The notes beneath the pieces are model-generated. The model saw nothing but the letters and a program-made list of their open reading frames with translations. It did no database searches and was not told the origin of the DNA. The position numbers were made by a program, and so were the translations under genes. Positions 1 through 12,703 of a DNA stretch of 12,703 nucleotides are shown in pieces (the first letter of the stretch is position 1; each line of letters starts with the position of its first letter). This DNA comes from an uncultured Planctomycetaceae bacterium (GTDB lineage: Bacteria > Planctomycetota > Planctomycetia > Pirellulales > Pirellulaceae): assembly GCA_903927685.1 (NCBI GenBank), contig CAIYOB010000004.1:1-12703 (forward strand). Direction: 5' to 3'.

Positions 1-107
1 CAGTCCGACTCTGAAAAGGGACCTGGTTTCGACTGGATCGAACGGCGACCATGCGGCGCTGCAGAGTCCGGCCGGTTGGCCGAGTCACCTCGAACAGGAG
101 GAGCGTC
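1..107. other. Leader before imuB, no assignable gene
   Basis: I see no complete gene here. In frame 3 a TGA stop falls at 12-14, so an upstream gene could end there, as imuA often does before imuB, but too few codons are visible to identify anything. The two other forward frames stay open into the imuB gene and their translations look like shadow reading. The region ends in a strong ribosome binding site for the downstream gene. Confidence 0.4.
96..101 (+). promoter_or_regulatory. Ribosome binding site of imuB
   Basis: AGGAGG ends six bases before the ATG at 108. It decides the start: an in-frame ATG at 51 would add 19 arginine-rich residues and has no such signal, whereas from 108 the protein opens directly with the family's typical beginning MPRILALWLPNWP. 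Confidence 0.75.
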
Positions 108-1709
108 ATGCCGCGCATCCTCGCCCTTTGGCTGCCCAATTGGCCCGTGCAACGACTCGTCCGCGACCAGCCGGAACTGGCGGGGCGCGCCATCGTGCTG
201 TATGAACAAGATGCCCGGCACGGTCAACGCGTCAAAACGTGCTCGGCGGCCGCGGAACATCAAGCCGTGCGGCCCGGAATGCCGTTGGCCGAGGCGCAGA
301 CGCTGGTGATGAGGCCGGCGACAGAAGGGAACAGGACGGGGAGACCTGCGGCGCGCGAGAGCGAACCGGTGGCGGGTGATCCGCTTGTCGCCTGTCACGA
401 CGCACGCCGGGATCAAGAGGCGCTGGTCGCGTTGGCCGAGTGGTGCGAGCAGTTCAGTCCCCTCGTCGGGCTCGACCAGGCGGACGAACCGGACACACTG
501 CTGTTGGACATCAGCGGCTTGGCCCACCTGTTTGGCGGCGAACAGGAGTTGGCCCGGGCGGTCGTCACTGCCTGCCGGCAACAGGACTTGACCGTTCGCG
601 TGGCGATTGCCGACACGGTTAGCGCCGCGTGGAGCCTGGCCCGTTGGAGCGAGGTGCTCGCGGAAGACACTGGAGGGGCGACCGTTGTGGAACGTTTGCC
701 CGTCGAAGCGTTGCGGCTGGCGTCGCGGGCGGTCGAGCAACTGCACCGGCTGGGCATTCGCCGCGTCGGGCAGTTGAACTGCCTGCCGCGGGCCAGCCTG
801 GCGGCGCGGTTTGGCGAATCGTTGCTCGAACAACTGGACAAGCTGGCCGGCACGGTCGCCGAGCCCATCGTGGCTCATCATGCCCGCGAACCGTTGGCGG
901 TGCGCTGGTGTTTCGAGCAACCGACGACGCATCACGAGACGCTCGAGTACGTCGTGGGGGACTTGTTGAGCCAGTTGGCGCGGCGGTTGCTGGAACGCGG
1001 CCAAGGCGTCTTGCGTCTGACTTGCCAACTGGTTTGCCGGAACCGGCCGCCGTTGAACATCGACATCAGCTTGTTTCGGCCCACGACCGCTCCGCAGCAT
1101 TTGTTGGCCCTGGCCAAGCTGCAGTTGGCCTTGGTGACCTTGCCCGAGGCGGTCGAGGAGATCCGGGTTCGCGCCTTGACGACCGCCCCCCGCGAGCAAC
1201 GGCAAGGCGAACTGTTCGGCGAATCGCCGCGGGACCAGCCGGCCCAGTTGGCGTTGCTGGTCGAGCGGCTGAGCAATCGCCTGGGACGCGAGCGCGTACT
1301 GCGGGCGGAACTGCTGGCGGAAGCGCAGCCCGAGTTGGCTTATCGCTACCGGCCGCTGGCCGGCGAGTCCGCCGCGTCACCGTCCGCCGCGCCGCCATCC
1401 CCAGCATCTTCGCCGGCGGGGATGGCGCTGCCGGGGCCGCTGCTGCGGCCCTTGCGATTGTTCGCTCCGCCGCAGCCGATCGACGTGGTCGGTTTGGCAC
1501 TGGGCGGGCCGCCGGCGATGTTTCACTACCAGCGCCGGCGGCATCGCGTGGCTCGCTGCTTCGGCCCCGAGCGGATCGAAACCGGCTGGTGGCGCGGCGA
1601 ATCGTGCCGCCGCGATTACTACCGCGTGGAAACCGAAGAGGGGAGTCGCTGGTGGCTGTTTCGGCGTCTGCAGGATCAGTGCTGGTTCCTGCACGGAGTG
1701 TTTGACTAG
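108..1709 (+). CDS. imuB: ImuB-like Y-family DNA polymerase homologue
   Basis: This 533-residue protein matches the ImuB type of Y-family polymerase relative, which works with ImuA and the DnaE2 polymerase in damage-induced mutagenic DNA synthesis. Seen in the sequence: the opening LALWLPNWPVQRL; a palm-like segment with LLLDISGLAHLFGGE around residues 131-145; a helix-hairpin-helix-like thumb stretch around 208-255 (LHRLGIRRVGQL); QGELF at 366-370, which resembles the beta-clamp binding motif QLxLF; and a C-terminal block near 490-533 (RDYYRVE at 502-508, then WFLHGVFD) typical of this family. The N-terminal metal-binding aspartate and the SIDE-type acidic pair of active Y-family polymerases are absent, as expected for ImuB, so it is probably a non-catalytic adaptor. 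The partner genes imuA and dnaE2 are not visible in the window. An Ala/Pro/Ser-rich linker lies near residues 420-440. The gene is separated from the next by 76 bases. Confidence 0.85.
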   Translation: MPRILALWLPNWPVQRLVRDQPELAGRAIVLYEQDARHGQRVKTCSAAAEHQAVRPGMPLAEAQTLVMRPATEGNRTGRPAARESEPVAGDPLVACHDARRDQEALVALAEWCEQFSPLVGLDQADEPDTLLLDISGLAHLFGGEQELARAVVTACRQQDLTVRVAIADTVSAAWSLARWSEVLAEDTGGATVVERLPVEALRLASRAVEQLHRLGIRRVGQLNCLPRASLAARFGESLLEQLDKLAGTVAEPIVAHHAREPLAVRWCFEQPTTHHETLEYVVGDLLSQLARRLLERGQGVLRLTCQLVCRNRPPLNIDISLFRPTTAPQHLLALAKLQLALVTLPEAVEEIRVRALTTAPREQRQGELFGESPRDQPAQLALLVERLSNRLGRERVLRAELLAEAQPELAYRYRPLAGESAASPSAAPPSPASSPAGMALPGPLLRPLRLFAPPQPIDVVGLALGGPPAMFHYQRRRHRVARCFGPERIETGWWRGESCRRDYYRVETEEGSRWWLFRRLQDQCWFLHGVFD

Positions 1710-1785
1710 TGCTTCGCCGAGGCTCAGAATTAGGTTCAGCCTTGACGGCCCACGACGCACTGCACCCCGGGAATTCGCCACCTCC
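1710..1785. other. Short gap between imuB and the kinase gene
   Basis: These 76 bases hold no terminator-like hairpin that I can see. A TTGACG at 1742-1747 resembles a -35 box, but no convincing -10 box follows at 16-19 bases. The sequence before the ATG at 1786 has no clear Shine-Dalgarno motif. The two genes may therefore be transcribed together. Confidence 0.4.
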
Positions 1786-4191
1786 ATGAGACCCCGACTA
1801 TGCTTTCTCGGCCTGTTCGCACTGGCGCTGACGGTTTCGGCGGCCCGCGGCCAAACCGTGCGCGCCGACGGCGATTACTGCCAGGACTGGCTCGTCGCGG
1901 GGCCATTCACGGCGCGGCATCTCTGGCTGATTCAAGTCGCCAACTTGCTGGGGCCTGGTCAGCTTGACCCGCAGGCAGGCCGTCCCGCGCTGCCGCTGAT
2001 GAAGGACGTCCCCAGCTGGACCCGCTATCAGGCCGTCAGCAGCCAGGTGAACCTGATCGACGCTTTCGGCCCGCACGAAGATGCCGGGGCCCTGGCGTTT
2101 GCGACGATCCTGGCGGATCGGGCCGGGCCGGCCACATTCTACTTCGGCAGCGACGACGAAGCCCGAGTCTGGATCAATGACCAGTTGGTGCACCGCTACG
2201 ACGAAGAACGGCCGCTCTGGCCGGACCAGGATTGCTTCACGGCCGAGTTGAAAGCCGGGGCGAACCGCTGCCTGGTGTTCGTCGCACAGGGCACGGGGAA
2301 CTGGGGGTTCACGTTGCGTGCCGTCACGGGCACAGCCCCCAGTCCGGTTCCCCTGGTCTGGGACGTCGCGGATGTCAAAGGTCAGGCTCGAGAGCTGTTC
2401 ACGCCGTACTGGCGCTGCCTGGCGGGAGACGAACCCCGCTTTGCCGACCCGCAGTACGACGATTCCGCCTGGACGCGGGTGTTGCCCAAGGGCCTGGTCG
2501 CCGGCGTCAAGGACGCGCCCGTGGTTTGGTTCCGCACGCCGGTCTGGTGTACGCGGGCCCTGGTCAACTTGCCCTGCCGGTTGTCCGCCACGGACCAAGG
2601 CACCGCCGAAATCTTCCTCGACGGCCGGTTGGTCTGCACGCTGGGCGCCGACTCGGCGGGCGGCAGTGGCCAGTTGCCCTCGCCGGGGACGACGCCAACC
2701 GCCTCGTTCGCCTTGACGGCCCCGCACCAGGTGCTGGCCGTCCGCCTGGTGCGCCGCCATCCCGAGGCGGACGACAAGCCGTTTGTGTTTGAACTCAAAC
2801 TGACGGTGGCGGACCGTTTCCGGGAACTCGCTACGGCCGATTGGGACGAAGCGGTCCAGGACCTGGCCGCAAAGGCTTCGCAGCGGCTGCACCGGCTGCT
2901 GCTGATCGTCGCCCTGCTGCTGTTCCTGGTCTTCCACGCGGCCCTGCTGTGCTACTATCCCAAGCGTCGCGCGAACCTGATGTTCTGCCTTACCCTGACG
3001 CTGGCGGTCGCGACGCTGGCGGTCCTGGACGCCCAGGAGATCGCCGCGGACCGGGGGCTGAGCGAGGGCCTGTACTGGCTGTTCCTGGCGATGGTGTCGG
3101 TGTGCATGCTGACGGGCCTGGCCTTGGCGCACGCCCTGTGGCGGGACGATCTGCCGTGGCGCAAGCTGCTGGTCTGGGCGGTCGTCCTGGTGGTCCTGTA
3201 CGCGGTGGGATGGACCAAGGGCGCGCGGACGTGGGCGTTCGTTGCCCTACCCTTGTGCACGTTCGAATTCCTGCGGCTGTACTTCCGTAACGCCTGGGGC
3301 CAAGTCCCCGGCAGCTGGGTGTACGGGCTCGGCCTGACCTGTTTCGCTGTCGCTCAATCGGTGAACGTCGTCGGCCACTTGAAGCTGATTGCGTTGCCCG
3401 CGACCGGCCTGTTCACGTACTTCTGGGTCTACGGATTCGTGGCCCTGCTGGCCTGCGTCTCGATCTACATCGGGCGGGAATTCGCGGGCGCGTTCCGCCA
3501 GTTGGAAGAGCTGACGGCGACGCTGGACCGGCGCGTCCAGCAGGTCTCGCGGCAGTTGGAGACCCGGCTGCTGGCGCAGGCCCGCCTGGAGACGCTGCGA
3601 TACCAGCTGAATCCGCACTTCCTGTTCAACGCCCTGAACTCGGTCGAAGCCCTGTCGCGGGAAGAGCCGGCCCAGATTCCGGAACTCGTCCGCCGATTGT
3701 GCGAATGCCTCCGCTATGCCCTGCATCCGAAGCCGGGCGGCGTCGCGACGCTGCAGCAGGAATTGGATGCGGTGGCCAGTTTCCTGAGCGTCGAGAAAGT
3801 GCGGTTCGAGGAGCAGTTGGTGATCGAAGTCGACGTCAGCCAGGCCGCGCGCGAGCAGAGCGTGCCGGAGTTTCTCTTGCAGCCGCTGGTCGAGAACGCT
3901 GTCAAGTACGGGATGCGGACCAGCGAACTGCCGTTGCGCGTGCAGGTCCTCGCCCACTGCGAAGACGACCGGCTGCGGGTCGAAGTCCGCAATACGGGCA
4001 GCTGGTCGAATGCCGACAGCGGAGTCCCGCACGGCGGCGTCGGGCTGGAGAACCTGCGAAACCGCCTGGAGTTGCTGTATCCCGACTGCCACCGCCTGGC
4101 CACCCAGGACGCTGACGGCTGGGTGTCGATATCGGTCCAGATCCCCTGTCGTCCGTCCACGTCGAGTGCAACAGGCGCCGGCCACGCTTGA
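1786..4191 (+). CDS. LytS-type sensor histidine kinase, multi-pass membrane
   Basis: This 801-residue protein looks like a membrane sensor kinase of the His_kinase/LytS class. Order of parts: signal peptide at residues 1-22 (MRPRLCFLGLFALALTVSAA); a large extracytoplasmic region to about 365; about seven membrane helices between 368 and 563; a coiled coil at about 565-605; then the kinase core with the phospho-acceptor motif NPHFLFN (His611), the ATP-binding N-box LLQPLVENAVKYG (Asn704) and a glycine-rich GGVGLENL box. The extracytoplasmic part shows FYFGSDDEARVWIN near 118-131. Later it has ADPQYDDSAW, VVWFRTPVW and AEIFLDGRLV, the spacing of galactose-binding-like jelly-roll domains as in glycoside hydrolase family 2 N-termini, so a carbohydrate-related ligand is possible (inference). 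An in-frame TTG at 1702 overlaps imuB, but the ATG at 1786 places the signal peptide at the N-terminus. Its probable partner is the LytTR regulator at 5038. Confidence 0.85.
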   Translation: MRPRLCFLGLFALALTVSAARGQTVRADGDYCQDWLVAGPFTARHLWLIQVANLLGPGQLDPQAGRPALPLMKDVPSWTRYQAVSSQVNLIDAFGPHEDAGALAFATILADRAGPATFYFGSDDEARVWINDQLVHRYDEERPLWPDQDCFTAELKAGANRCLVFVAQGTGNWGFTLRAVTGTAPSPVPLVWDVADVKGQARELFTPYWRCLAGDEPRFADPQYDDSAWTRVLPKGLVAGVKDAPVVWFRTPVWCTRALVNLPCRLSATDQGTAEIFLDGRLVCTLGADSAGGSGQLPSPGTTPTASFALTAPHQVLAVRLVRRHPEADDKPFVFELKLTVADRFRELATADWDEAVQDLAAKASQRLHRLLLIVALLLFLVFHAALLCYYPKRRANLMFCLTLTLAVATLAVLDAQEIAADRGLSEGLYWLFLAMVSVCMLTGLALAHALWRDDLPWRKLLVWAVVLVVLYAVGWTKGARTWAFVALPLCTFEFLRLYFRNAWGQVPGSWVYGLGLTCFAVAQSVNVVGHLKLIALPATGLFTYFWVYGFVALLACVSIYIGREFAGAFRQLEELTATLDRRVQQVSRQLETRLLAQARLETLRYQLNPHFLFNALNSVEALSREEPAQIPELVRRLCECLRYALHPKPGGVATLQQELDAVASFLSVEKVRFEEQLVIEVDVSQAAREQSVPEFLLQPLVENAVKYGMRTSELPLRVQVLAHCEDDRLRVEVRNTGSWSNADSGVPHGGVGLENLRNRLELLYPDCHRLATQDADGWVSISVQIPCRPSTSSATGAGHA

Positions 4192-4285
4192 TTCGCCGCG
4201 TCCCCGGGGGCCGATTCACCCCAGAATCCGGCCGTCTCACCCCAAACTTGTTGCTCCCGGCCCGCCGCGAGGTCAGGCTGGAGCA
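4192..4285. promoter_or_regulatory. Intergenic gap with 15-bp direct repeat, candidate operator
   Basis: GGCCGATTCACCCCA at 4209-4223 recurs as GGCCGTCTCACCCCA at 4230-4244, with 13 of 15 positions identical and a period of 21 bases. LytTR-family regulators typically bind two imperfect direct repeats spaced about two helical turns apart. The site lies 41 bases before the next start codon, in a locus that encodes a LytTR regulator. The binding role is inference; the repeat itself is plain in the sequence. No clear -35/-10 promoter is seen. Confidence 0.4.
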
Positions 4286-4843
4286 ATGAGTCCGGTCAAT
4301 TCCCACTTCCTGTTCAATGCCCTGAATTCGATCGAAGCGTTGTCGCGCGAGGCCCCGGCGCGGATCCCGGAACTGGTGCGGGGACTGGCGGAATACCTGC
4401 GTCACGCGTTACGATCTGGGGAGGGTGAGTGGGCGACGGTCCAGCAGGAGTTGGACGCCGTCGCGAGCTACCTGCGCGTGGAGAAGATCCGCTTTGAAGA
4501 CCAGTTGCACGTCGAGTTGCAGATCGACGACGCAGCCCGGCCTGTGCGGGTTCCCCGGTTGCTCCTGCAGTCGCTGGTCCAGCACGCCGTGCAGCACGGG
4601 ATGGCCACCAGTGCCACGCCGCTGGGCCTCCGCGTGCGTGTTTGCCGCTCGGCCGGGCGGCTGCGGATCGAGGTGCAAGACACGGGGACCAGGTCCGCCG
4701 CAGGGGGCGGCCGGGAGATATTGGGGGAGGATCTTGGCACGCGTCTGGACCAGCTCTATCATCCGGACGAATACCGCCTGGTCTGCGGCGACACCGGCGG
4801 CTGGGCTTCGCTCGCGGTCGACCTGCCGGCGAGCGACCGCTGA
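4286..4843 (+). CDS. Headless, degenerate LytS-type kinase core (paralogue of upstream kinase)
   Basis: This 185-residue protein begins six residues before the HFLFN box (His7) and aligns from there to its end with the C-terminal core of the kinase just upstream: HFLFNALNS, EALSRE, IPELVR, QQELDAVAS and VEK are shared. It has no signal peptide, sensor, membrane helix or coiled coil. Key ATP-site positions are altered: the N-box reads LLQSLVQHAVQHG, with Gln99-His100 in place of Glu-Asn, and the GxGLxNL glycine box is replaced by GEDLGTRL. Asp132 in DTGT is kept. It is therefore probably a pseudokinase or a decaying duplicate, although a soluble modulator or phosphotransfer role through His7 remains possible. 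The ribosome binding site is weak (AGG at 4275-4277). The frame stays open upstream of the ATG, but that stretch reads as non-coding. It is intact, without stops or frameshifts, which argues against simple decay. Confidence 0.65.
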   Translation: MSPVNSHFLFNALNSIEALSREAPARIPELVRGLAEYLRHALRSGEGEWATVQQELDAVASYLRVEKIRFEDQLHVELQIDDAARPVRVPRLLLQSLVQHAVQHGMATSATPLGLRVRVCRSAGRLRIEVQDTGTRSAAGGGREILGEDLGTRLDQLYHPDEYRLVCGDTGGWASLAVDLPASDR

Positions 4844-5037
4844 CGGCGGGGTGTCACGGAGCGTCCAACCGCAAGACTCAGCTGCGCGGATGCCCCCACC
4901 CGGCCGCTACCGCGTCCGACCTCCCCCGCTGCGCAGGGGAGGTCAAGCACGGAAAGCCCCGCAGAGGCCGACCCCTGACCCCTGACCCCTGACCCCTGAC
5001 CCCTGACCAATGACCCCTGACCAATGACCCCTGACCA
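4844..5037. other. Intergenic region with hairpin and heptamer repeat
   Basis: These 194 bases separate the kinase fragment from the response regulator. They carry a 9-bp perfect inverted repeat (4918-4944) followed by a 70-base tandem heptamer array that runs into the regulator's start codon. I see no Shine-Dalgarno sequence in front of that start, and no convincing promoter boxes. Confidence 0.6.
4918..4944. repeat. 9-bp inverted repeat (stem-loop)
   Basis: GACCTCCCC at 4918-4926 and GGGGAGGTC at 4936-4944 are perfect reverse complements around a nine-base loop. No T-run follows, so a classical intrinsic terminator is not supported. It could be an RNA hairpin in the leader of the regulator mRNA, or a dispersed palindromic repeat. 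Confidence 0.6.
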
Positions 5038-5040
5038 ATG
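4971..5040 (+). repeat. Ten-unit tandem heptamer repeat overlapping a start codon
   Basis: Five ACCCCTG units (4971-5005) are followed by ACCAATG, ACCCCTG, ACCAATG, ACCCCTG and ACCAATG, making ten heptamers without interruption. The ATG of the last unit (5038-5040) is the start codon of the response regulator. The two earlier ACCAATG units place ATGs at 5010 and 5024, each opening a five-codon frame (MTPDQ) that ends on a TGA overlapping the next ATG. Because seven is not a multiple of three, a change in unit number would shift upstream frames but not the regulator's own frame. Confidence 0.85.
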
Positions 5041-5877
5041 ACCACCAAAGCTCTTCTAGTCGATGACGAGCGGTTAGCGCGGCGGAGCCTGCGGGCGTTG
5101 CTGGCCGAGCATCCGGAGATGGAGATCGTAGGCGAGGCGTCCAACATCCGGCGGGCGGCGGAGTTGATCGCGGCGGAACGTCCTGAGGTCGTGTTTCTGG
5201 ACATTCAGATGCCCGGGGGCAGCGGGTTTGACTTATTGGCACCGTTGGACGATCCTCCCGCGATCATCTTTGTCACCGCCTACGACGAATACGCGATTCG
5301 CGCTTTTGAAGTCAATGCTTTGGACTACCTGCTGAAGCCGGTCGAGCCGGCACGGCTGGCGCTGGCCCTGGCGCGGGTGCACGCACATACGGGCCACGCG
5401 GACTCGTCGGCCGGGCCGTACACGGCCGACGACCAAGTCTTGATCAAGACGGCCCGGCGGTGCTTCTTCCTGCCCGTGGCGCGGATTGCGGTCATTCGGG
5501 CCGCGGACAATTACAGTTACGTCATCTGCGACAGCGGCGATGAACACTTGGTCCGGAAGAGCTTGAAGGACTGGGAAACGATGCTGCCTGCCGACCGTTT
5601 TGAGGCGTTGGACCGTTCCGTCGTGATCAACTGGCGTCTGATCGAAAAATGGGTGCCCCGCGGCCGGAGTCTCGATCTGTATTTCGGGCGGGCGTCCGCG
5701 CCGCTGGAACTGGGCCGAGCCGCCGCCCAACACTTCAAGACCCGGATCATCCCCAAACTAACCGGCTTTGCGATCCGCGCCGGCGGCGAGTATGCTATGG
5801 GGCACGAGGATCAAGACCATGGAAAAGCCATTTATCCTGCACATGCTGACCCCGGGCAAGAACGTAAGTCCGTTTGA
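5038..5877 (+). CDS. LytTR-family response regulator
   Basis: This 279-residue protein has a receiver domain at about 1-120 and a LytTR DNA-binding domain at about 132-237. Receiver residues are all in place: Asp9-Asp10, the phospho-acceptor Asp55 in VVFLDIQMPG, Thr80 and Lys100 in LLKPV. The LytTR part shows ARIAVIRAADNYSYV and the FEALDRSVVIN segment characteristic of the family. It should receive phosphate from the LytS-type kinase upstream and act as a transcription factor. The start is the ATG that ends the heptamer repeat, with no Shine-Dalgarno motif; MTTKALLVDDE is the natural family beginning. About 40 residues (from roughly 240) run past the usual end of the domain and their last 19 codons overlap the next gene in another frame. 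This tail looks like non-selected sequence, which suggests that an earlier stop was lost. Confidence 0.9.
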   Translation: MTTKALLVDDERLARRSLRALLAEHPEMEIVGEASNIRRAAELIAAERPEVVFLDIQMPGGSGFDLLAPLDDPPAIIFVTAYDEYAIRAFEVNALDYLLKPVEPARLALALARVHAHTGHADSSAGPYTADDQVLIKTARRCFFLPVARIAVIRAADNYSYVICDSGDEHLVRKSLKDWETMLPADRFEALDRSVVINWRLIEKWVPRGRSLDLYFGRASAPLELGRAAAQHFKTRIIPKLTGFAIRAGGEYAMGHEDQDHGKAIYPAHADPGQERKSV

Positions 5878-6727
5878 CGTGAATATGGCCCTGGACGCCG
5901 GCTGGACGGCGGTGGTGCCCTATTCGCACGTGGATCTGGACGACATCGGGCCGCTGGTCCAGGACGTGATCTTCTCGCGGAGTCCGAAGAGTGCCAAACG
6001 TACCGGGATCTTCATCGGCGGCCGGGACTTGCATATCGCCATGGACATGCTGGACGGGGCTCGCGAGGCGATGGTGCCGCCGTTCGAGGTCTCGGTGTTT
6101 GCCGATCCCAGCGGGGCGTTCACCACGGCCGCCGCGCTGGTCGCCTGCGTCGAACGCCAGCTGCAGAAGTCGCACAGCGCCACGCTGGCCGGCCTGCGGA
6201 TCCTGGTGCTGGGCGGCACCGGTCCGGTCGGCGCGGCGGCGGCCATCCTGGCCGCCAAGGCGGGGGCCGAGGTGGTTATCCTGGGCCGCCACAAGGACCG
6301 GGCCGATCGCGTCGCCGCGATCTGCAATCACAATTACGGAGCCGACTTGACGGGCATCAAGGGCGACGCGAGCGATCACAAGTTCGAGCAGTTCCGCTAC
6401 GCCGATGTGGTGCTGGGAACCGCCAGAGCCGGCATCCAGGTCATGGCCGCCGCGGACGTGGCCGCCGCGCCGCGGCTGAAAGTCGCCGCGGACGTCAACG
6501 CCGTGCCGCCGGCAGGCATCGCCGGCGTCGGCCTGCAGGATGACGGCACCCCCCTGGCCGGCTCGACCAGCGGCGCGGTCAGCATCGGAGCCCTGGCGAT
6601 CGGCAACATCAAATACAAGACGCAGCATGACTTGTTCCAACGTATGCACAATGCGGAAAAACCGCTGTATTTGCACTTCGAACAGGCTTTCGATTATGCC
6701 CGAAAATCCCTCGCACACGGGCACTGA
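5819..6727 (+). CDS. NAD(P)-dependent methylene-tetrahydromethanopterin dehydrogenase (MtdB/MtdC-like)
   Basis: This 302-residue protein belongs to the MtdA/MtdB/MtdC family, which oxidises methylene-tetrahydromethanopterin (or -folate) to the methenyl form with NAD(P) in one-carbon oxidation or formaldehyde detoxification. Seen: an N-terminal catalytic-type domain (LTPGKNVSPFDVNMALDAGW; GIFIGGRD near 80), a Rossmann nucleotide loop GGTGPVG at residues 132-138 followed by AEVVILGRHKDRA, and VAADVNAVPPAGIAGVG, matching the family's ADYNAQPPLGIGG-type segment. The start at 5819 follows GAGGA (5806-5810). An in-frame upstream ATG at 5768 would only add codons inside the regulator gene. Length fits the family (about 290-300). 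It overlaps the LytTR gene by 59 bases and is followed closely by two co-directional genes. The subclass (MtdB or MtdC) cannot be settled by eye, though divergence from proteobacterial MtdB and the planctomycete-like context favour MtdC. Confidence 0.85.
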   Translation: MEKPFILHMLTPGKNVSPFDVNMALDAGWTAVVPYSHVDLDDIGPLVQDVIFSRSPKSAKRTGIFIGGRDLHIAMDMLDGAREAMVPPFEVSVFADPSGAFTTAAALVACVERQLQKSHSATLAGLRILVLGGTGPVGAAAAILAAKAGAEVVILGRHKDRADRVAAICNHNYGADLTGIKGDASDHKFEQFRYADVVLGTARAGIQVMAAADVAAAPRLKVAADVNAVPPAGIAGVGLQDDGTPLAGSTSGAVSIGALAIGNIKYKTQHDLFQRMHNAEKPLYLHFEQAFDYARKSLAHGH

Positions 6728-6739
6728 AAGGAGAATCCG

Positions 6740-6976
6740 ATGCTGACTGCCCCCGAGGTGCTGAGCACCTATTTTCTGGAAACTCGCTGCCAACTGCTGG
6801 AGATCGGAGCCGTGCTGGACCGACTGGATCGCGCGGCCGCTGGCGATCCGCCGAGCGATATGGCAGCCGACGAGCGACTGGGCAAGGTCTATCAGTCGCT
6901 GCAGCTGTTGGCGGATCGCACGACGACGCCCGACCGGGCCGAGCGGCTATTGCACCTGTTTTCCGATCCCGCTTGA
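6740..6976 (+). CDS. Small conserved-looking protein of unknown function, 78 aa
   Basis: I do not recognise this 78-residue, mostly helical, acidic protein. It lies 12 bases after the Mtd gene and 15 bases before the TatD-like gene, with an excellent ribosome binding site (AAAGGAG at 6727-6733, six bases before the ATG), so it is very probably translated as part of that operon. It has no signal peptide, membrane helix or cysteine pair; only one cysteine is present (in ETRCQLL). Leucines and charged residues alternate in two predicted helices (about 5-32 and 44-72), which suits a small partner or subunit. A link to C1 metabolism rests on position only. Confidence 0.75.
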   Translation: MLTAPEVLSTYFLETRCQLLEIGAVLDRLDRAAAGDPPSDMAADERLGKVYQSLQLLADRTTTPDRAERLLHLFSDPA

Positions 6977-6991
6977 AGAGGAAGCCGAACC

Positions 6992-7813
6992 ATGCAGATC
7001 ATCCAACCGCACTACCACGGGATCGCGCGCACCGCCCAAGACTATGAACGGATGGCGATGTCCGGCGTCGTGGCCGTCGCCGAACCGGCGTTCTGGGCCG
7101 GCTTCGACCGCAAGTACCCGGAAACGTTCATCGACTACTTCCGCCAGATCAGCGAGTTCGAGCCGACGCGGGCCGCCCAGTACGGGATCCGGCATTTCTG
7201 CTGGGTCGCGGTGAATCCCAAGGAGGCGGAGAACCCGGACTTGAGCCGCGAAGTCCTGCGGCAGATGCCGGACTTTTTCCAGAAGCCCACCGTGCTGGGC
7301 GTCGGGGAAATCGGCTTTCACAAAACAACCAGGAACGAGGAGGAGATCTTCGAGGCCCAAGTCGAACTGGCACTCCAGCACAACCAACTGATCCTGATTC
7401 ACACGCCGCATCTGCAGGACAAAGTCCGCGGGACGAAGCGGACGCTGGAAGTCCTGGCCCACATGCGGGTCGATCCCCAGCGGGTCTGGATCGATCACAT
7501 CGAGGAGCACACGATCCGGGCGCCGCTGGACGCCGGCTACTGGGTCGGCATGACGCTGTACCCGATCACCAAGTGTTCGCCCAGACGCGCGGTCGACATC
7601 CTGGAGCAATATGGCACCGAGCGGATCCTGGTCAATTCGTCGGCCGATTGGGGTCCCAGCGATCCGTTTACGCTGCAGGAGTGCATTCTCGAATTCCGCC
7701 GCCGCAAGCACACGCTGCAGGAGGCGATCGAGGTGTTCCACAATAACCCGTGCCGGTTCCTGGGCCAGTGCCCGAAATTCGACCTCCGGCCGATCCGCGT
7801 GGAAACGGTGTGA
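6992..7813 (+). CDS. TatD-family metal-dependent hydrolase
   Basis: This 273-residue protein has the length and metal-ligand pattern of TatD-type amidohydrolases (TIM barrel, two divalent metals): His7 and His9 in PHYHG, Glu106 in GEIGFH, His137 in LILIHTPH, His169 in IDHIEEH and Asp219 in NSSADWG. Canonical TatD DNases have GEIGLD and ETDxP at two of these sites, so this is a divergent branch. From memory it resembles the TatD-like proteins of ebo-type metabolite clusters more than housekeeping TatD (moderate confidence; not checked). The substrate is unknown; location beside an Mtd-type dehydrogenase suggests a role in cofactor or one-carbon metabolism rather than DNA turnover. The AGAGGAAG site just upstream supports the start. 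It is the last gene of the tight run 5819-7813. Confidence 0.8.
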   Translation: MQIIQPHYHGIARTAQDYERMAMSGVVAVAEPAFWAGFDRKYPETFIDYFRQISEFEPTRAAQYGIRHFCWVAVNPKEAENPDLSREVLRQMPDFFQKPTVLGVGEIGFHKTTRNEEEIFEAQVELALQHNQLILIHTPHLQDKVRGTKRTLEVLAHMRVDPQRVWIDHIEEHTIRAPLDAGYWVGMTLYPITKCSPRRAVDILEQYGTERILVNSSADWGPSDPFTLQECILEFRRRKHTLQEAIEVFHNNPCRFLGQCPKFDLRPIRVETV

Positions 7814-8025
7814 GCCCGGCCCCGTAGGACGGCCTCAGACGCAGCATCGTTCACGAAACTGGGGCCTCGTTTAACGCCAAGCCGGCAGGCGACGGCTGCG
7901 GTGGCCGCATCCCGCTGATCCGCCGTCGCCTGCCGGCTCGGCGTTAAACGAGCTGAGCCGAAATGGGGAAGTTATTTCGTGATCGCGGCTGCAGAATTCA
8001 ATCTTCGCGGTGAAAGGCTGGCCCA
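7814..8025. other. Intergenic region with long inverted repeat
   Basis: These 212 bases separate the TatD-like gene from the next plus-strand gene. The main content is the 87-base inverted repeat at 7866-7952. Beyond it the sequence is less GC-rich (around 7960-8005), which would suit a promoter, but I cannot point to convincing -35/-10 boxes. AAAGG at 8013-8017 is a possible ribosome binding site for the GTG at 8026. Confidence 0.6.
7866..7952. repeat. 31-bp near-perfect inverted repeat with nested hairpin
   Basis: The arm 7866-7896 pairs with 7922-7952 with a single mismatch (A at 7879). The 25-base loop contains its own small hairpin, TGCGG at 7897-7901 and CCGCA at 7905-7909. The arms begin CTCGTTTAACGCC and end GGCGTTAAACGAG. 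There is no adjacent T-run and no open frame, so a dispersed palindromic (REP/MITE-like) element or a bidirectional transcription stop after the TatD-like gene are the best readings. Copies elsewhere in the genome cannot be tested from this window. Confidence 0.85.
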
Positions 8026-9900
8026 GTGAAGACGCGTCTGCCCGCGAAAACGGGATCCTGTACATCCGAGCCCGAACTCTCCCGGCTCCGCACGCATTTC
8101 GTGTCCCTCGCGGTACTGGTTGCCTGCCACTTGGCCGCCGTGCCCGCCCACGCCCACCCCATTTCGCTGACCCAGGCGTTCGTGTTCGTGACCCGGGACC
8201 AGGTGAGCGTCCAACTGGACTTCTTTGCCGAGGATCTGTTCCTGTTCCACGGACTGGGGCCCAATGATCGGGATTTCCTCGAGCCGGACTTGATCCAGAC
8301 GGGCATCCAACGGCACGAGAAGTTCCTGCTCGAGCGGTTTTCGATCCGCGACGTGCAAGGCCAGCGACTGGTAGGCCGCGTGGTCGGGGTCGAACAGCCG
8401 AAGATGCCGCCGGAGGGGATTCGGCTGGCCGACTTGATGTCGCACCGGATCTCTTTCCAGGTGGAATACCCGCTGGCCGAACCGCCTGAGTTCCTCACGT
8501 TCAGCCAGCACCTGACGGAAGGCCAGCTGGTTGTGCCCGCCGAGGTCCAGCTGCACGTCCAGCAGGAAGGCGCGGGGACTGCATCGCGGGAGGTTCTTTA
8601 TCCCGGCACACCGCAGACGGTGCGGTTCGGTTGGGACAATCCGCCACTGCCGCCCGACGCGTCCCAGAACGCGCGGGACGAGTGGTATCAGAGGCAGAAA
8701 GACGAGACGCTGGGCATCACCAGCTACAGCGCGGTGTACTCGTTCCTGTACATCACGGATTACGAAGTCCGCCACGAGATCCTGATCCCGCTGCTGACTT
8801 TGGAGGAGAGTGTGTTGATTGCCCGCGCGGACACCGCGTTCCTGGAGGTTGCGGAACAGGACGCGGCCCGCGAACAGATCGCGGCGTACTTTACCGCGGG
8901 CAATCCACTGGAGATCGACGGTGTGCGCGTCCAACCGGTCGTGCCACGGATCGATTTCTACGGGCTGGATTTCAAGGACTTTGCCCAACGGGCTGAGCCC
9001 CGCCGAGTGCCGCTGTCGAGCGCCCGCGTGGGAGTCATTCTGTCCTACAGCACCAAGGGGAGCCCCAGCCGCGTCCAGCTGACTTGGGATCGCTTCAATC
9101 GGTTCGTCTGGACGGTGAACATGATCGTCTACGCATTTGACGAAACCCAGCGCGTCACCCTGTCCCGGCTGGGGTTGGAGAATCAATACCGCTGGCAGAA
9201 TCCCGGCCGCCCGGTTCCCCCGCCGCTGACCCAAATCGACATCACGCTGCCGCCGCGACCCCGCTGGTCGGTGCCGCTGGCCTCGTTGGCGTGCCTGTTG
9301 GCCCTGCCGGGGCTGCTGTGGCTGCTGCGGCGTCAGTCCGCGGCCAGGATGTCGTACATGTTTGGCTCAGCCCTCGTGGTCGTCGTCGCGGCGGGCGTTT
9401 GGCCGGTCGGCCGCTGGGAAATCGAGAATCCGTTCGCGCCGCCGAGCACCGCATCGGCGGAACAGGCTGCGGCCATTTTCGCCGCGTTGCACAAGAACAT
9501 CTACCGCGCGTTTGACTATCGCGAGGAAAGCGACGTGTACGAGGCGCTGGCCAAGAGCGTCGACGGGCCGCTGTTGAACGAGCTGTACCTGCAAGTTCGC
9601 CGTGGACTGGAGATGCAGGAACAGGGCGGCGCCGTGTCGCGGATCCGCGAAGTGAAGGTCGTCGCCGGCGAGCGCCAACCGGCCGGGGCCGGCGGCGAGG
9701 CCGACCCGCGCAGTTTCGCCTATCGCTGTCGCTGGACCGTGGCGGGGACGATCGAGCACTGGGGCCACGTGCACGCCCGGACCAACGAGTACGAAGCCCG
9801 GTTCGCCGTCGAACCGCGTGCCAACGCCTGGAAGATCACGGCGCTGGACGTGTTGAACGAGCGGCGATTGAAATTCGAGACGACGGTCCGCGGGCTGTGA
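8026..9900 (+). CDS. Secreted, membrane-anchored protein of unknown function
   Basis: This 624-residue protein has an N-terminal signal peptide (about residues 24-43, ending AAVPAHA before HPISL), then a long extracytoplasmic region rich in beta-type sequence (about 45-410), two membrane helices (about 414-435 and 443-463) with a short Arg-rich turn between them, and a C-terminal region (about 464-624) with AIFAALHKNIYRAFDYREESD followed by a beta-rich part. The mature start HPISLTQAFVFV resembles the periplasmic N-terminal segment found ahead of HupE/UreJ-like proteins, but the multi-pass HupE core is absent. I do not assign a function. The GTG start at 8026 has AAAGG eight bases upstream; GTG at 8101 would still leave a signal sequence and cannot be excluded. 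Its stop codon directly abuts that of the convergent gene. Confidence 0.75.
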   Translation: MKTRLPAKTGSCTSEPELSRLRTHFVSLAVLVACHLAAVPAHAHPISLTQAFVFVTRDQVSVQLDFFAEDLFLFHGLGPNDRDFLEPDLIQTGIQRHEKFLLERFSIRDVQGQRLVGRVVGVEQPKMPPEGIRLADLMSHRISFQVEYPLAEPPEFLTFSQHLTEGQLVVPAEVQLHVQQEGAGTASREVLYPGTPQTVRFGWDNPPLPPDASQNARDEWYQRQKDETLGITSYSAVYSFLYITDYEVRHEILIPLLTLEESVLIARADTAFLEVAEQDAAREQIAAYFTAGNPLEIDGVRVQPVVPRIDFYGLDFKDFAQRAEPRRVPLSSARVGVILSYSTKGSPSRVQLTWDRFNRFVWTVNMIVYAFDETQRVTLSRLGLENQYRWQNPGRPVPPPLTQIDITLPPRPRWSVPLASLACLLALPGLLWLLRRQSAARMSYMFGSALVVVVAAGVWPVGRWEIENPFAPPSTASAEQAAAIFAALHKNIYRAFDYREESDVYEALAKSVDGPLLNELYLQVRRGLEMQEQGGAVSRIREVKVVAGERQPAGAGGEADPRSFAYRCRWTVAGTIEHWGHVHARTNEYEARFAVEPRANAWKITALDVLNERRLKFETTVRGL

Positions 9901-11691
9901 CTATTCCTTCTTCAGCCCTTCGGACTGCAGCTTGCGGAAGGCATCGACGCCTTCGCCCGCCGGCTCGCCTTCCTTGCTTTCCTTCTTCTTGATCACGTCG
10001 TCCAGGTTGAGTTGGATCTTCTTGAACGTCTTGTCCGACACCAGGTAGTACCAATCGGCAAAGCGGGTATTCTCCTTGGCGACCGTTTCCTTGGCCTTCT
10101 TGATCTTGTCGTTTCGCTCGTCGATCTTCCGCTGGTTCTCCTTATTGATCCGCTCGCGTTCCTTTTCGATCTCGGATTCCTGCGCTTCCTTGTCGGTCTT
10201 GGCTTCCGGCTTGGCGGCGGCAGCCGCGTCGGGTTTGGCAGCAACCGCGTCGGGTTTGGCCTCGGGGGCTGGCTTCGCTTCGCTCTCCGGCTTTGCTTCC
10301 GCCGGCGCCGGTTCCTTGGCTGCGGGCCCGTCGCTCGCCGTGGGCTTGGCCGTCTCGGTCGCGGTTTCCGCCGGCTTGGCCTCCGGCTTGACTTCGGGTT
10401 TCTCTTCCGGTTTCGCAGCCGGCTTCTCCTCGGGCTTGACTTCGGTCTTAGCTTCCGGCTTTGCTTCCGGCTTAGCTTCCGGCTTGGCTTCGGTCTTGGC
10501 GCCCTGCGGCAGTTCCGGCAGGGGCTGCAGTTCGGGCTGCGGGAACTTGGACATGTCGACGCGCGTGGTCACGAACAGGTAGCGGTCCTGGCCTTCGTCG
10601 GCGGCACCGCTGGCACTCTCTTGGGTTTCGCCAAACCGTAGCACGTACTCGACTCCGTCCTTGGTTCCGACGCTGACTTCTCCGTTGGCGCTCAGCAACT
10701 CGACCTCGTTGCTGGCCGTGGGAACCATGTAGAAGCCGTGCTTGGCCAAGTCCATGACGCCCTCGTCGTCCTTGGCATAGCCTTCGCCGGCTTTCAGGTC
10801 GGCGCCGAGTCCCTTGGGCTTCTTGCGGACATCGGCGATTTCCAGTTCGTCGACGGCGGTCTTCAGATCGTTCAGCTTGTCCTTGTTCAGCTCTTCCTGG
10901 TCGGACAAAGCCACAACGGCTCCTTCGCCCTGGCTATATTTCTTCAGCTCGCGGACTTTCCATTCCGAGTCCTTGAAATCCGCCAGCAGATCGAACTTCT
11001 TGTCGATCAGGACTCGGGGCGGCTGAAACGAGACGGTGTAATTCTTCAGTGCGACGTGTTCGACGTCCCAACTCTTCAGATCCTTGAACAGGTCCTTTTC
11101 GATCCAGTCCTGGAACTTGGTGGACAGTTTGTCGGGGTCGATCCGGACCGTGTACACCGCATCCTTTTTCGGCTCGCGCACGAACCGCTGGTCGTCCGCA
11201 CCCTTGACCTTCTTGCCGATGATCAGACTGGCCAGATCTTGCCCCTTGGCATCTTCAAAGCGGACCAACAGGCCCACTCCCTCGTCGCCAGCCTTCAGCT
11301 TGTCCTTGTCCGGCTCGACGACGCCGAACATCCGGTGGTCGCCGGAGACCGTCGAGGCGATTCCGAGGATCTGCAGGTCGACCAGCAACAAGGCGGCGTC
11401 GCGGACGCGCGTTTCAGCGTCCGCCGGATAGCCGCCATGCGATGGCAGCGTCCATGCACCCGAGGCTTTGTCACGAGCCACGCTGAACTCGTCCAGCGTT
11501 CCCAACGCCTCGTCGTATTTGACGATCGCCATCCGATCCGCTTGGGCCGGATCGTCGAATTTCTCGAACAGCACTTTGCCTTCCTGCTCGCTGACCTTGA
11601 ACTCCTCGATTCTGGGGCGCGAAATGAACGCGACCAGCGCGACGAGCAGGGCCACACCCATGTAAATCAGCGTCTTGATGCCTTCAGTCAT
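9901..11691 (-). CDS. DUF4340 domain protein, membrane-anchored
   Basis: This 596-residue protein has one N-terminal membrane helix (residues about 5-23, MTEGIKTLIYMGVALLVALV) and then an extracytoplasmic region of DUF4340 type. Recognisable segments are WTLPSHGGYPADAETRVRDA, LIIGKKVKGADDQRFVRE and VYTVRIDPDKLSTKFQDWIE. A long Lys-Pro-Glu-Ala low-complexity stretch (about residues 396-500) and a charged helix precede a final block FADWYYLVSDKTFKKI. DUF4340 proteins usually follow GldG-like ABC auxiliary genes, exactly as here (GldG-like gene ends at 11836), and probably act in the same envelope transport complex. The start chosen gives the membrane helix near the N-terminus and has GGAGAG upstream; an ATG at 11760 adds 23 unconvincing residues and has no ribosome binding site. 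The gene's precise biochemical role is unknown. Confidence 0.85.
   Translation of the reverse strand: MTEGIKTLIYMGVALLVALVAFISRPRIEEFKVSEQEGKVLFEKFDDPAQADRMAIVKYDEALGTLDEFSVARDKASGAWTLPSHGGYPADAETRVRDAALLLVDLQILGIASTVSGDHRMFGVVEPDKDKLKAGDEGVGLLVRFEDAKGQDLASLIIGKKVKGADDQRFVREPKKDAVYTVRIDPDKLSTKFQDWIEKDLFKDLKSWDVEHVALKNYTVSFQPPRVLIDKKFDLLADFKDSEWKVRELKKYSQGEGAVVALSDQEELNKDKLNDLKTAVDELEIADVRKKPKGLGADLKAGEGYAKDDEGVMDLAKHGFYMVPTASNEVELLSANGEVSVGTKDGVEYVLRFGETQESASGAADEGQDRYLFVTTRVDMSKFPQPELQPLPELPQGAKTEAKPEAKPEAKPEAKTEVKPEEKPAAKPEEKPEVKPEAKPAETATETAKPTASDGPAAKEPAPAEAKPESEAKPAPEAKPDAVAAKPDAAAAAKPEAKTDKEAQESEIEKERERINKENQRKIDERNDKIKKAKETVAKENTRFADWYYLVSDKTFKKIQLNLDDVIKKKESKEGEPAGEGVDAFRKLQSEGLKKE
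10195..10505 (-). repeat. Low-complexity KPEA-type repeat inside the DUF4340 gene
   Basis: The DUF4340 protein carries a stretch of about 100 residues dominated by Lys, Pro, Glu and Ala, with repeated AKPE units. At DNA level a 12-base unit (GCTTCCGGCTTN on the plus strand) repeats three times perfectly except for its last base at 10451-10486 and once with changes at 10487-10498. Such stretches are extended, flexible linkers or wall-spanning spacers. Repeat number is likely to vary between strains. Confidence 0.8.
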
Positions 11692-11835
11692 GATTCTTAT
11701 CTCTCCAACCTCATTCAAACCGCTCCAGCGAAGGACCGGCGAACACCGGCCCACTGCCATGCCGAGGGGCAGCCGTCCCCTGGGGGGGCCCCGGTCCGCC
11801 GGCGCAGGCCGACCGGGTCCGAGCTGCCTCGCTCC
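11692..11835. other. Gap between GldG-like and DUF4340 genes
   Basis: These 144 bases lie within the presumed minus-strand operon. A short hairpin is possible (AGGGG at 11765-11769 with CCCCT at 11777-11781). On the minus strand GGAGAG precedes the DUF4340 start. No gene or clear promoter is seen. Confidence 0.5.
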
Positions 11836-12703
11836 CTACCGCATCCGCGACTTGGCTACGCCCTCGCGTTCGCGCAGGCGGCGCCGGACAAACACGATCA
11901 GGGCGACCAACAGAGGCGGGATCGGCGGAAGTGCCACGGCCAAGCCCTTGTACCAGTTCTTGATGCCCACGATCTCCGAGTCCACTTGGCGGCGGATCTC
12001 TTCGATCTTTTCGTCCCGCTGACGCTGCAGCTGCTCGCGCTTCACGTCCAGACGCCGCTTCAGCCGCTCTTGAACCTCGGCCAACTTCTGCGCCCGGCTC
12101 TGCAGATCCGAAAACCGGATCCCACCCTGCCCCGCGTCCGTCTGCTTGGCCTGCAGTTCTTCCAGTTCCTTCTTGAACTTGTCGATTTCCTTGTTGTTCT
12201 CTTCCTCAATCGCCTTGACGGCCTTGTCGAACTCTTCCTGGTACGTCATCCGCTCGCGGAATTCCGTCTGGCGAGCCGCCTGAGCCCCGACCTCGACAAT
12301 CCGCAAGGTGCTGTGCTTGGGCTTGCGCTTACGGATTTCGACATAGTCGTCGTCACCCGAGAGGATATCCACGATATTGAGCAGGAAGTTGACGTTCTCG
12401 AACTGCCAGCTGATCTCCTCGTCCTCGCCGGGACGAGCCCGGATGCGGAGGAAGGCAGGCATCATCAGGTCGATGTCCGCCACGTAGACCACGTCCAGGC
12501 TGCGGGCCTTCGGCTCCTCCGCCGCAGGCTTCGCGGGCTCTTTGCCGCCAGTCGCGTCCTTGGCTGCAACATCCTTGGCTGCCGCATCCTTGGCTGCCGC
12601 ATCCTTGGCCGCTTCCGCCGGAGCGGCGGCCGGCTTGCTCTCGGCGCCCGCGGCGGGTGTTTCCGCGACCTTCGCGTCGACCTTGGCCTCTTCCGCGCCG
12701 GCG
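11836..12703 (-). CDS. GldG-like ABC-transporter auxiliary protein, 3' part
   Basis: The frame is open from the right window edge to the stop at 11836, so the N-terminal part is missing; the GTG at 12490 is internal, not the start. Visible parts in order: an Ala/Lys/Asp-rich linker (with AAAKD units), then VVYVADIDLMMPAFLRIR and WQFENVNFLLNIVDILSGDD, which match the C-terminal part of GldG-type ABC_transp_aux proteins, then a long charged coiled coil (KAIEEENNKEIDKFKKELEE onward; LKRRLDVKREQLQRQ), and one C-terminal membrane helix (about 11885-11945) followed by RRRLRERE. GldG-like proteins accompany an ABC ATPase and permease in envelope export, named after gliding motility in Bacteroidetes but widespread elsewhere. 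The DUF4340 gene follows 144 bases downstream. The ATPase and permease should lie beyond the right edge. Confidence 0.85.
   Translation of the reverse strand, partial: AGAEEAKVDAKVAETPAAGAESKPAAAPAEAAKDAAAKDAAAKDVAAKDATGGKEPAKPAAEEPKARSLDVVYVADIDLMMPAFLRIRARPGEDEEISWQFENVNFLLNIVDILSGDDDYVEIRKRKPKHSTLRIVEVGAQAARQTEFRERMTYQEEFDKAVKAIEEENNKEIDKFKKELEELQAKQTDAGQGGIRFSDLQSRAQKLAEVQERLKRRLDVKREQLQRQRDEKIEEIRRQVDSEIVGIKNWYKGLAVALPPIPPLLVALIVFVRRRLREREGVAKSRMR
12556..12615 (-). repeat. 15-bp tandem repeat encoding AAAKD units
   Basis: Four 15-base units run head to tail: 12556-12570 (three changes), two identical copies at 12571-12585 and 12586-12600, and a diverged fourth at 12601-12615. On the minus strand they encode repeated Ala-Ala-Ala-Lys-Asp, a composition known to form rigid alpha-helical spacers. 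They sit in the linker of the GldG-like protein. Confidence 0.8.

Follow-up and report, generated by a model that had tools for sequence, protein, structure and literature searches.

A short LytS-derived protein encoded between a planctomycete LytS-type kinase and a LytTR regulator is likely an old, retained pseudokinase

We analyzed a 12,703-nucleotide stretch of DNA from an uncultured Planctomycetaceae bacterium (contig CAIYOB010000004.1, positions 1 to 12,703; hereafter "the window"), in which a short open reading frame (ORF) lies between genes for a LytS-type sensor kinase and a LytTR-type response regulator. Judged from its sequence and that of its relatives, the product of this ORF (P0001; hereafter "the headless protein") is an old, retained, LytS-derived pseudokinase that is likely a working part of signaling and not a broken copy of a kinase. 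This agrees with an earlier note on the window, which had described a headless, probably kinase-dead LytS core with the look of a functional, retained gene, next to a kinase of the parental type and a LytTR regulator. The features concerned are as follows.

1786–4191, + strand: LytS-type sensor kinase of the parental type, 801 amino acids from the ATG at 1786 (the longest ORF starts from the TTG at 1702)
3616–3618, + strand: predicted phospho-acceptor His codon of the full-length kinase (H611 in the numbering of P0019, the database copy of the window kinase, in which we noticed one differing residue)
4286–4843, + strand: headless LytS-core pseudokinase, 185 amino acids
4304–4306, + strand: retained His7 codon of the headless protein
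4580–4600, + strand: degenerate N-box QHAVQHG (ENAVKYG in the parental-type kinase)
4679–4687, + strand: G1-box DTG (NTG in the parental-type kinase)
4715–4735, + strand: lost end of the G2 box and ATP lid, EILGEDL (GVGLENL in the parental-type kinase)
5038–5877, + strand: LytTR-type response regulator (receiver, 3.4e-22; LytTR, 4e-10)

Comparison of the headless protein with the kinase ORF ending at 4191 by BLASTP gave 98 identities over 182 residues (54%; E 2e-54; kinase-ORF residues 636–816), consistent with the earlier proposal that the product repeats the catalytic core of that kinase. The proposal that it starts almost at the phospho-acceptor box was also correct. Homology begins at the H-box (LNPHFLFNALNS in the parental-type kinase, VNSHFLFNALNS in the short protein), and six residues of the headless protein precede the phospho-acceptor His. 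The headless protein consequently has no sensor, membrane or coiled-coil part. The N-box reads LVQHAVQHGM in the headless protein and LVENAVKYGM in the kinase, replacing Glu-Asn with Gln-His, as had been seen before, and Lys with Gln. A further loss had gone unremarked: the end of the lid and G2 box reads EILGEDL in the headless protein and GVGLENL in the kinase, with three lid residues missing and the glycines lost. The Pfam family His_kinase (PF06580) matched P0001 over the H-box region (E 2.3e-18, above the cut-off), placing the protein by descent in the LytS-type family. Of the properties expected of an active LytS-type sensor kinase, P0001 has neither the intact N-box and G-boxes nor a sensor or transmembrane part with a signal helix; it has instead the combination expected of a pseudokinase, with the kinase fold kept, catalytic residues lost and the gene retained. 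In the predicted model of the headless protein, His7 lies at the start of a helical hairpin and the ATP lid is modeled at low confidence. The model matches kinase cores, the closest solved structure being the GanS kinase core (6swj/6swk), and it resembles the fold of ChpT no more closely than it does that of active kinases.

The frame of the headless ORF behaves as a gene. It is open from 4286 to 4843 with no internal stop, and His7 is kept, so that the earlier statement that both the frame and the phospho-acceptor His are intact stands. The GC content at its third codon positions is 0.83, as compared with 0.75–0.86 in the kinase, regulator, Mtd-like and TatD ORFs, while of the six frames across 4286–4843 it alone scores positively for codon use. 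The frame is also open upstream to 4010; we set aside a start there and take 4286 as the likely start, because the upstream part lies over the kinase, which is read in a different frame, and its translation is, by eye, unlike the N-termini of longer family members. All three genes lie on one strand, with 94 bases between the kinase and the headless ORF and 194 bases between the headless ORF and the regulator. We found no terminator-like sites in 3900–5200. One sigma-70-like match was found at 4734–4762, within the headless ORF and upstream of the regulator (mean of 0.0 in shuffled sequences), although matching the consensus does not show that the site is used.

A protein search with the headless ORF found, counting the query itself, 18 proteins at an E value of 1e-3 or lower; a profile search from 13 of these gave 7530 proteins, of which we considered the best 120. 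At least 28 metagenome proteins are short members of the family (P0001–P0013, P0015, P0139–P0149, P0153, P0156 and P0159). P0014 and P0016–P0018 were judged from sequence to belong to other lineages or to have membrane parts and were not counted, with P0014 serving as an outgroup. Absence or breakage of the gene in relatives, named in the earlier note as the mark of a decaying duplicate, is mostly not what we observed: 22 of the 28 members are full-length and intact, whereas three have an incomplete N-terminus (P0149, P0156 and P0159) and three a disrupted C-terminal part (P0015, P0148 and P0153). The nearest member, P0002, is 78% identical to P0001 and has the same start position and Gln-His N-box. 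His_kinase matched 26 of the 28 short members at E 0.01. The Pfam family HATPase_c matched only four, but this is a weak gauge of decay because just 7 of 17 kinases match it. Within the short family, 25 of 199 columns are invariant.

We built a maximum-likelihood tree of 52 core sequences, 26 of them short rows, leaving out P0015 and P0153 for their disrupted C-termini. The short rows formed one clade with support of 100/99, and this clade grouped with LytS-type kinases. In a first tree, two outgroup rows (P0036 and P0038) had been cut wrongly and there were long branches; with seven outgroup rows dropped, the result for the headless clade was the same. In approximately unbiased (AU) tests, forcing P0001 together with the adjacent kinase cost 129 log-likelihood units (p 0.00018), and forcing P0001 and P0002 together with P0019 and P0020 cost 49 (p 0.00015). 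Hence, we reject a recent duplication local to the window, which the earlier note had suggested in calling the gene "duplicated from" its neighbor. Since the short proteins form a separate clade and the joined tree is rejected, the duplication predates the split of the sampled organisms, and on this tree the adjacent kinase is a cousin of the headless protein, not its direct parent. The short clade may be sister to all kinases or nested among them (support 54/65).

To describe what the family has lost and kept, we set 26 short rows against 16 kinase rows column by column, leaving out P0033. Short members either lack the signal helix that precedes the His-box or show no conservation there, and the upstream residues of the longer members are likewise unconserved. 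The N-box Asn is kept in 15 of the 26 short rows and the N-box Lys in two (18 have Arg); Trp at 740 is kept in seven. Both G2 glycines are present in 13 of 26 short rows as compared with 15 of 16 kinases, and the three lid residues are absent from every short row except P0148. Strict forms of the N-box, G1 and G2 occur together in none of the 26 short rows, as compared with 15 of the 16 kinases. Among columns invariant in the kinases, short-family entropy was 1.21 bits in the ATP motifs (15 columns) and 0.42 bits elsewhere (41 columns), a difference equaled in 0 of 20,000 permutations; the ranges counted as motifs correspond to the positions of the N-, G1- and G2-boxes, although they were set after the column table had been seen. 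The HFLFNALN box is mostly kept, with F, L, F, N (four residues after the His, H+4), L and N present in all 23 rows that cover it. The phospho-acceptor His itself is present in 20 of these, and Asp takes its place in the sisters P0012 and P0143 and in P0147; this replacement happened in two separate lineages, with the rest of the box nearly unchanged. Eight positions are conserved in the short family only (R26, Q53, D57, E71, Q73, R88, D155 and E179), suggesting a new constraint.

Decay of the ATP site is graded. In the window subclade of five rows, G2 is lost in all five and the N-box is strictly intact in two (P0003 and P0004). In the 21-row sister subclade, GxG is kept in 13 rows, the N-box Glu is kept in all 21, and Arg replaces Lys in 18. 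Relaxed forms of the N-box, G1 and G2 are all kept in six rows (P0006, P0012, P0013, P0139, P0143 and P0149), three of which also keep the His (P0006, P0013 and P0139). The description "kinase-dead" is consequently strongest for the window protein and P0002 and less certain elsewhere, and the case for a pseudokinase is weaker in the sister subclade.

We also looked for pairing of short proteins with kinases. Four short proteins lie on contigs of exactly the same length as that of a parental-clade kinase (43796 bases, the window locus; 6374; 4487; and 5217), and on the 4487-base contig the 798-amino-acid kinase and the 234-amino-acid short protein are necessarily within ~1.4 kb of each other. 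The check covered the longest contig per cluster and the best 120 of 2308 kinase matches. Among members on contigs of at least 4 kb, 4 of 11 were matched to a kinase, the window included; the seven unmatched members (P0009, P0011, P0015, P0140, P0144, P0146 and P0148, with two of the contigs measuring 54 and 69 kb) are not proof of absence, given that scope. The paired kinases lie closer together than their short proteins, whose distances are larger by factors of 1.6 to 2.4 but follow the same rank order (six non-independent comparisons from four pairs). A scan of genome contigs gave only a Verrucomicrobia locus with 36% identity in a 606-amino-acid ORF; a scan of viral contigs gave no match, and plasmid matches were all below 60% (33–44% among the 15 listed of 261 records). 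Matches were found in 37 of 288 genomes from the phylum of the Verrucomicrobia locus; the headless form was not seen among them, and all listed matches lie in open frames of at least 277 amino acids. The smallest match in that scan (L012 ~2990–3763, − strand, genome G182) belongs to a LytS-type kinase ORF of up to 257 amino acids whose N-box is intact and in which no membrane part is obvious, and by eye there is LytTR-regulator-like sequence nearby.

The window protein is not plausibly a sensor kinase, since it has no signal helix and a broken ATP site. What remains of it, a hairpin of the dimerization and histidine phosphotransfer (DHp) type and a domain like the catalytic and ATP-binding (CA) one, comprises the surfaces that kinases use to contact regulators and one another. 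The best explanation, which we hold tentatively and with somewhat less than even confidence, is that the short protein is a soluble, regulator-facing DHp module that lowers or buffers phosphorylation of the LytTR regulator. Such a protein would have given up signal input and, in P0001, very probably ATP-driven autophosphorylation as well, while retaining the dimerization and His-box part together with a Bergerat-type domain whose ATP site is broken. It would dock onto the LytTR regulator of the same locus and lower or buffer its phosphorylation, presumably by taking the phosphoryl group onto His or by dephosphorylation, and would thereby set the gain of the kinase/regulator pair. The DHp domain of EnvZ is reportedly able to act without the kinase domain. 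An action on the regulator phosphate is favored because LytS itself is able to dephosphorylate LytR (PMC4830213) and because the Asn at H+4 is kept in all 23 covering rows.

Several observations weigh against a regulator-facing module of this kind. The phosphatase activity of Staphylococcus aureus LytS is described as stronger with ATP (PMC4830213), a stimulation that a dead CA domain could not provide, and the role of H+4 in phosphatase activity is taken from a kinase outside the LytS class, DrBphP (PMC8292422). Transfer through His is not essential throughout the family, given the Asp in P0012/P0143 and in P0147, and P0153, which lies outside the trees, retains its His but carries Asp at H+4. 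Some members of the sister subclade may still bind nucleotide or even be active, since relaxed ATP motifs are kept there, in three rows together with His. Pairing with a kinase is drawn from matching contig sizes in 4 of 11 members and is unproven in the other seven. Finally, conservation of the DHp domain is suggestive only. In three pairs with complete sequence, short proteins are 63–73% identical to the paired kinase in DHp and 39–49% in CA, but kinases among themselves also conserve DHp better (88–95% versus 59–74% in three comparisons).

The main rival is that the short protein acts as a dimer partner, forming a heterodimer with the parental kinase through the shared DHp helices and activating, inhibiting or retuning it, with His and the ATP site dispensable. 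The higher DHp identity to the paired kinase and the loss of His in two lineages that otherwise keep the box are consistent with this, as is the report in PMC9491836 that the His of ChrS_CA-fs is not needed for its effect and that native ChrS and HrrS heterodimerize. However, the same paper reports no significant heterodimerization of the truncated ChrS variant itself, the short family lacks or does not conserve the signal helix and coiled coil ahead of the His-box, and shared regulator docking explains the high DHp conservation equally well. We regard a dimer partner as unlikely, albeit as a serious competitor to control of the regulator phosphate.

It is less likely again that the short protein is a phosphotransferase of the Spo0B/ChpT/PhyT type, acting between two receiver domains in a phosphorelay. 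One receiver protein was found among the nine window ORFs scanned, and, in a difference from ChpT, two headless lineages have lost the His. It is improbable that the short protein is a soluble kinase that remains active through a divergent ATP site. The strict N-box and G1 of P0003 and P0004, the G2 glycines in 13 of 26 rows and the relaxed N-box, G1 and G2 in six of 26 speak for it, as does the weakness of HATPase_c loss as evidence; against this, P0001 has lost both G2 glycines as well as the Glu, Asn and Lys of the N-box, and no row combines the strict motifs. Finally, a decaying duplicate without function is very improbable and was rejected as the principal explanation: the distances within the short family, larger than those among the paired kinases by factors of ~1.6 to 2.4, and the three disrupted C-termini fit decay, but the single old origin, the 22 open frames and the 25 invariant columns do not, and the kinase row P0170 also has a disrupted end, suggesting that some such ends may be assembly errors.

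The AlphaFold2 model of the parental-type kinase (mean predicted local distance difference test score, pLDDT, 72; predicted template modeling score, pTM, 0.37) comprises an N-terminal helix, a beta-rich region at 34–341, seven long helices at 351–607, the last of which extends into the stretch ahead of the His-box, and the His_kinase core. Outside the core, parts of the model align at low template modeling scores to entries such as anti-sigma factor domain proteins and beta-galactosidases, and we therefore propose no signal for the kinase. The usual G1-box consensus is Asp-x-Gly; the G1 box of the kinase clade (window 3991–3999) is Asn-Thr/Ser-Gly in all 16 rows compared, and Asn-Thr-Gly is also found in some more distant kinases (P0193, P0195 and P0215).

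One further feature lies between the headless gene and the regulator and reaches into the regulator start codon.

4970–5045, + strand: heptamer tandem repeat GACCCCT/GACCAAT

The repeat has 9.6 copies of seven bases across 4970–5036 and may affect translation of the regulator, or may be a mutation-prone stretch. The end of the regulator gene is overlapped by a methylene-tetrahydromethanopterin dehydrogenase-like gene at 5768–6727 (Mpt_N, E 8e-36), which hints at one-carbon (C1) metabolism and at the lineage. A Y-family DNA polymerase-like ORF at 51–1709 matched Pfam IMS at 5.9e-12, above its cut-off, and was far under the cut-offs of the seven NCBIfam models listed. Short tandem repeats with units of 12, 15, 21 and 48 bases (10216–10500 and 12553–12609) sit in large overlapping ORFs on both strands, 9901–11760 (−) and 10738–12702 (+), in which no Pfam or NCBIfam family was found at E 0.01.

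Degenerate proteins derived from kinases are already known. ChpT is the Caulobacter histidine phosphotransferase of the CckA-ChpT-CtrA relay and is not known to have its gene flanked by those of a LytS kinase and a LytTR regulator. The direct family of the short proteins is that of the LytS/GanS-type kinases (PF06580), although the LytS-type kinases compared here are longer sensor kinases and 15 of 16 keep the N-box, G1 and G2. Spo0B of Bacillus is described in PMC12826061 as a cytoplasmic dimer, perhaps derived from a kinase minus its signal-detection and ATP-binding domains, that diverges fast; the headless protein would resemble it in these respects, a likeness drawn from description, but Spo0B, unlike it, is a relay protein between Spo0F and Spo0A. 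PhyT/PhyP of alphaproteobacteria are similar in their degenerated ATPase domain and their encoding at the locus of the regulator, and show His-dependent transfer and negative control, which the headless protein may share, according to PMC5898713 for PhyT/PhyP, whose authors place Spo0B, ChpT and PhyT in one group; their DHp carries an HRxxN motif, however, whereas the headless protein has a LytS-type box. DivL and ChrS_CA-fs, a laboratory-evolved frameshift, are non-catalytic kinase relatives in which the phospho-acceptor residue is not needed (PMC9491836 and, for DivL, also PMC4211667), and unlike the headless protein they retain sensory parts. The earlier claim that no system of this layout has been described thus holds in part: we found no LytS/LytTR-class case in the kinase/headless/regulator layout in the literature searched, judged from titles and the openings of abstracts, a weak indication of absence given its thin coverage of subscription journals, but the degenerate kinases above are described. 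More tentatively still than its action on the regulator, we suggest that the headless family may be an independent origin of such proteins in the LytS/LytTR class, a sensor-less pseudokinase that would control the regulator phosphate beside a parental kinase and regulator, with the Asp variants acting by docking alone.

To our knowledge, only a few cases of histidine kinases turned phosphotransfer or docking proteins are known. With its graded decay of the ATP site, its mostly conserved His with natural Asp variants and, at least in the window, an adjoining kinase of the parental type, the headless family is a good natural series for studying how a kinase can give up its catalytic activity and still keep a job.
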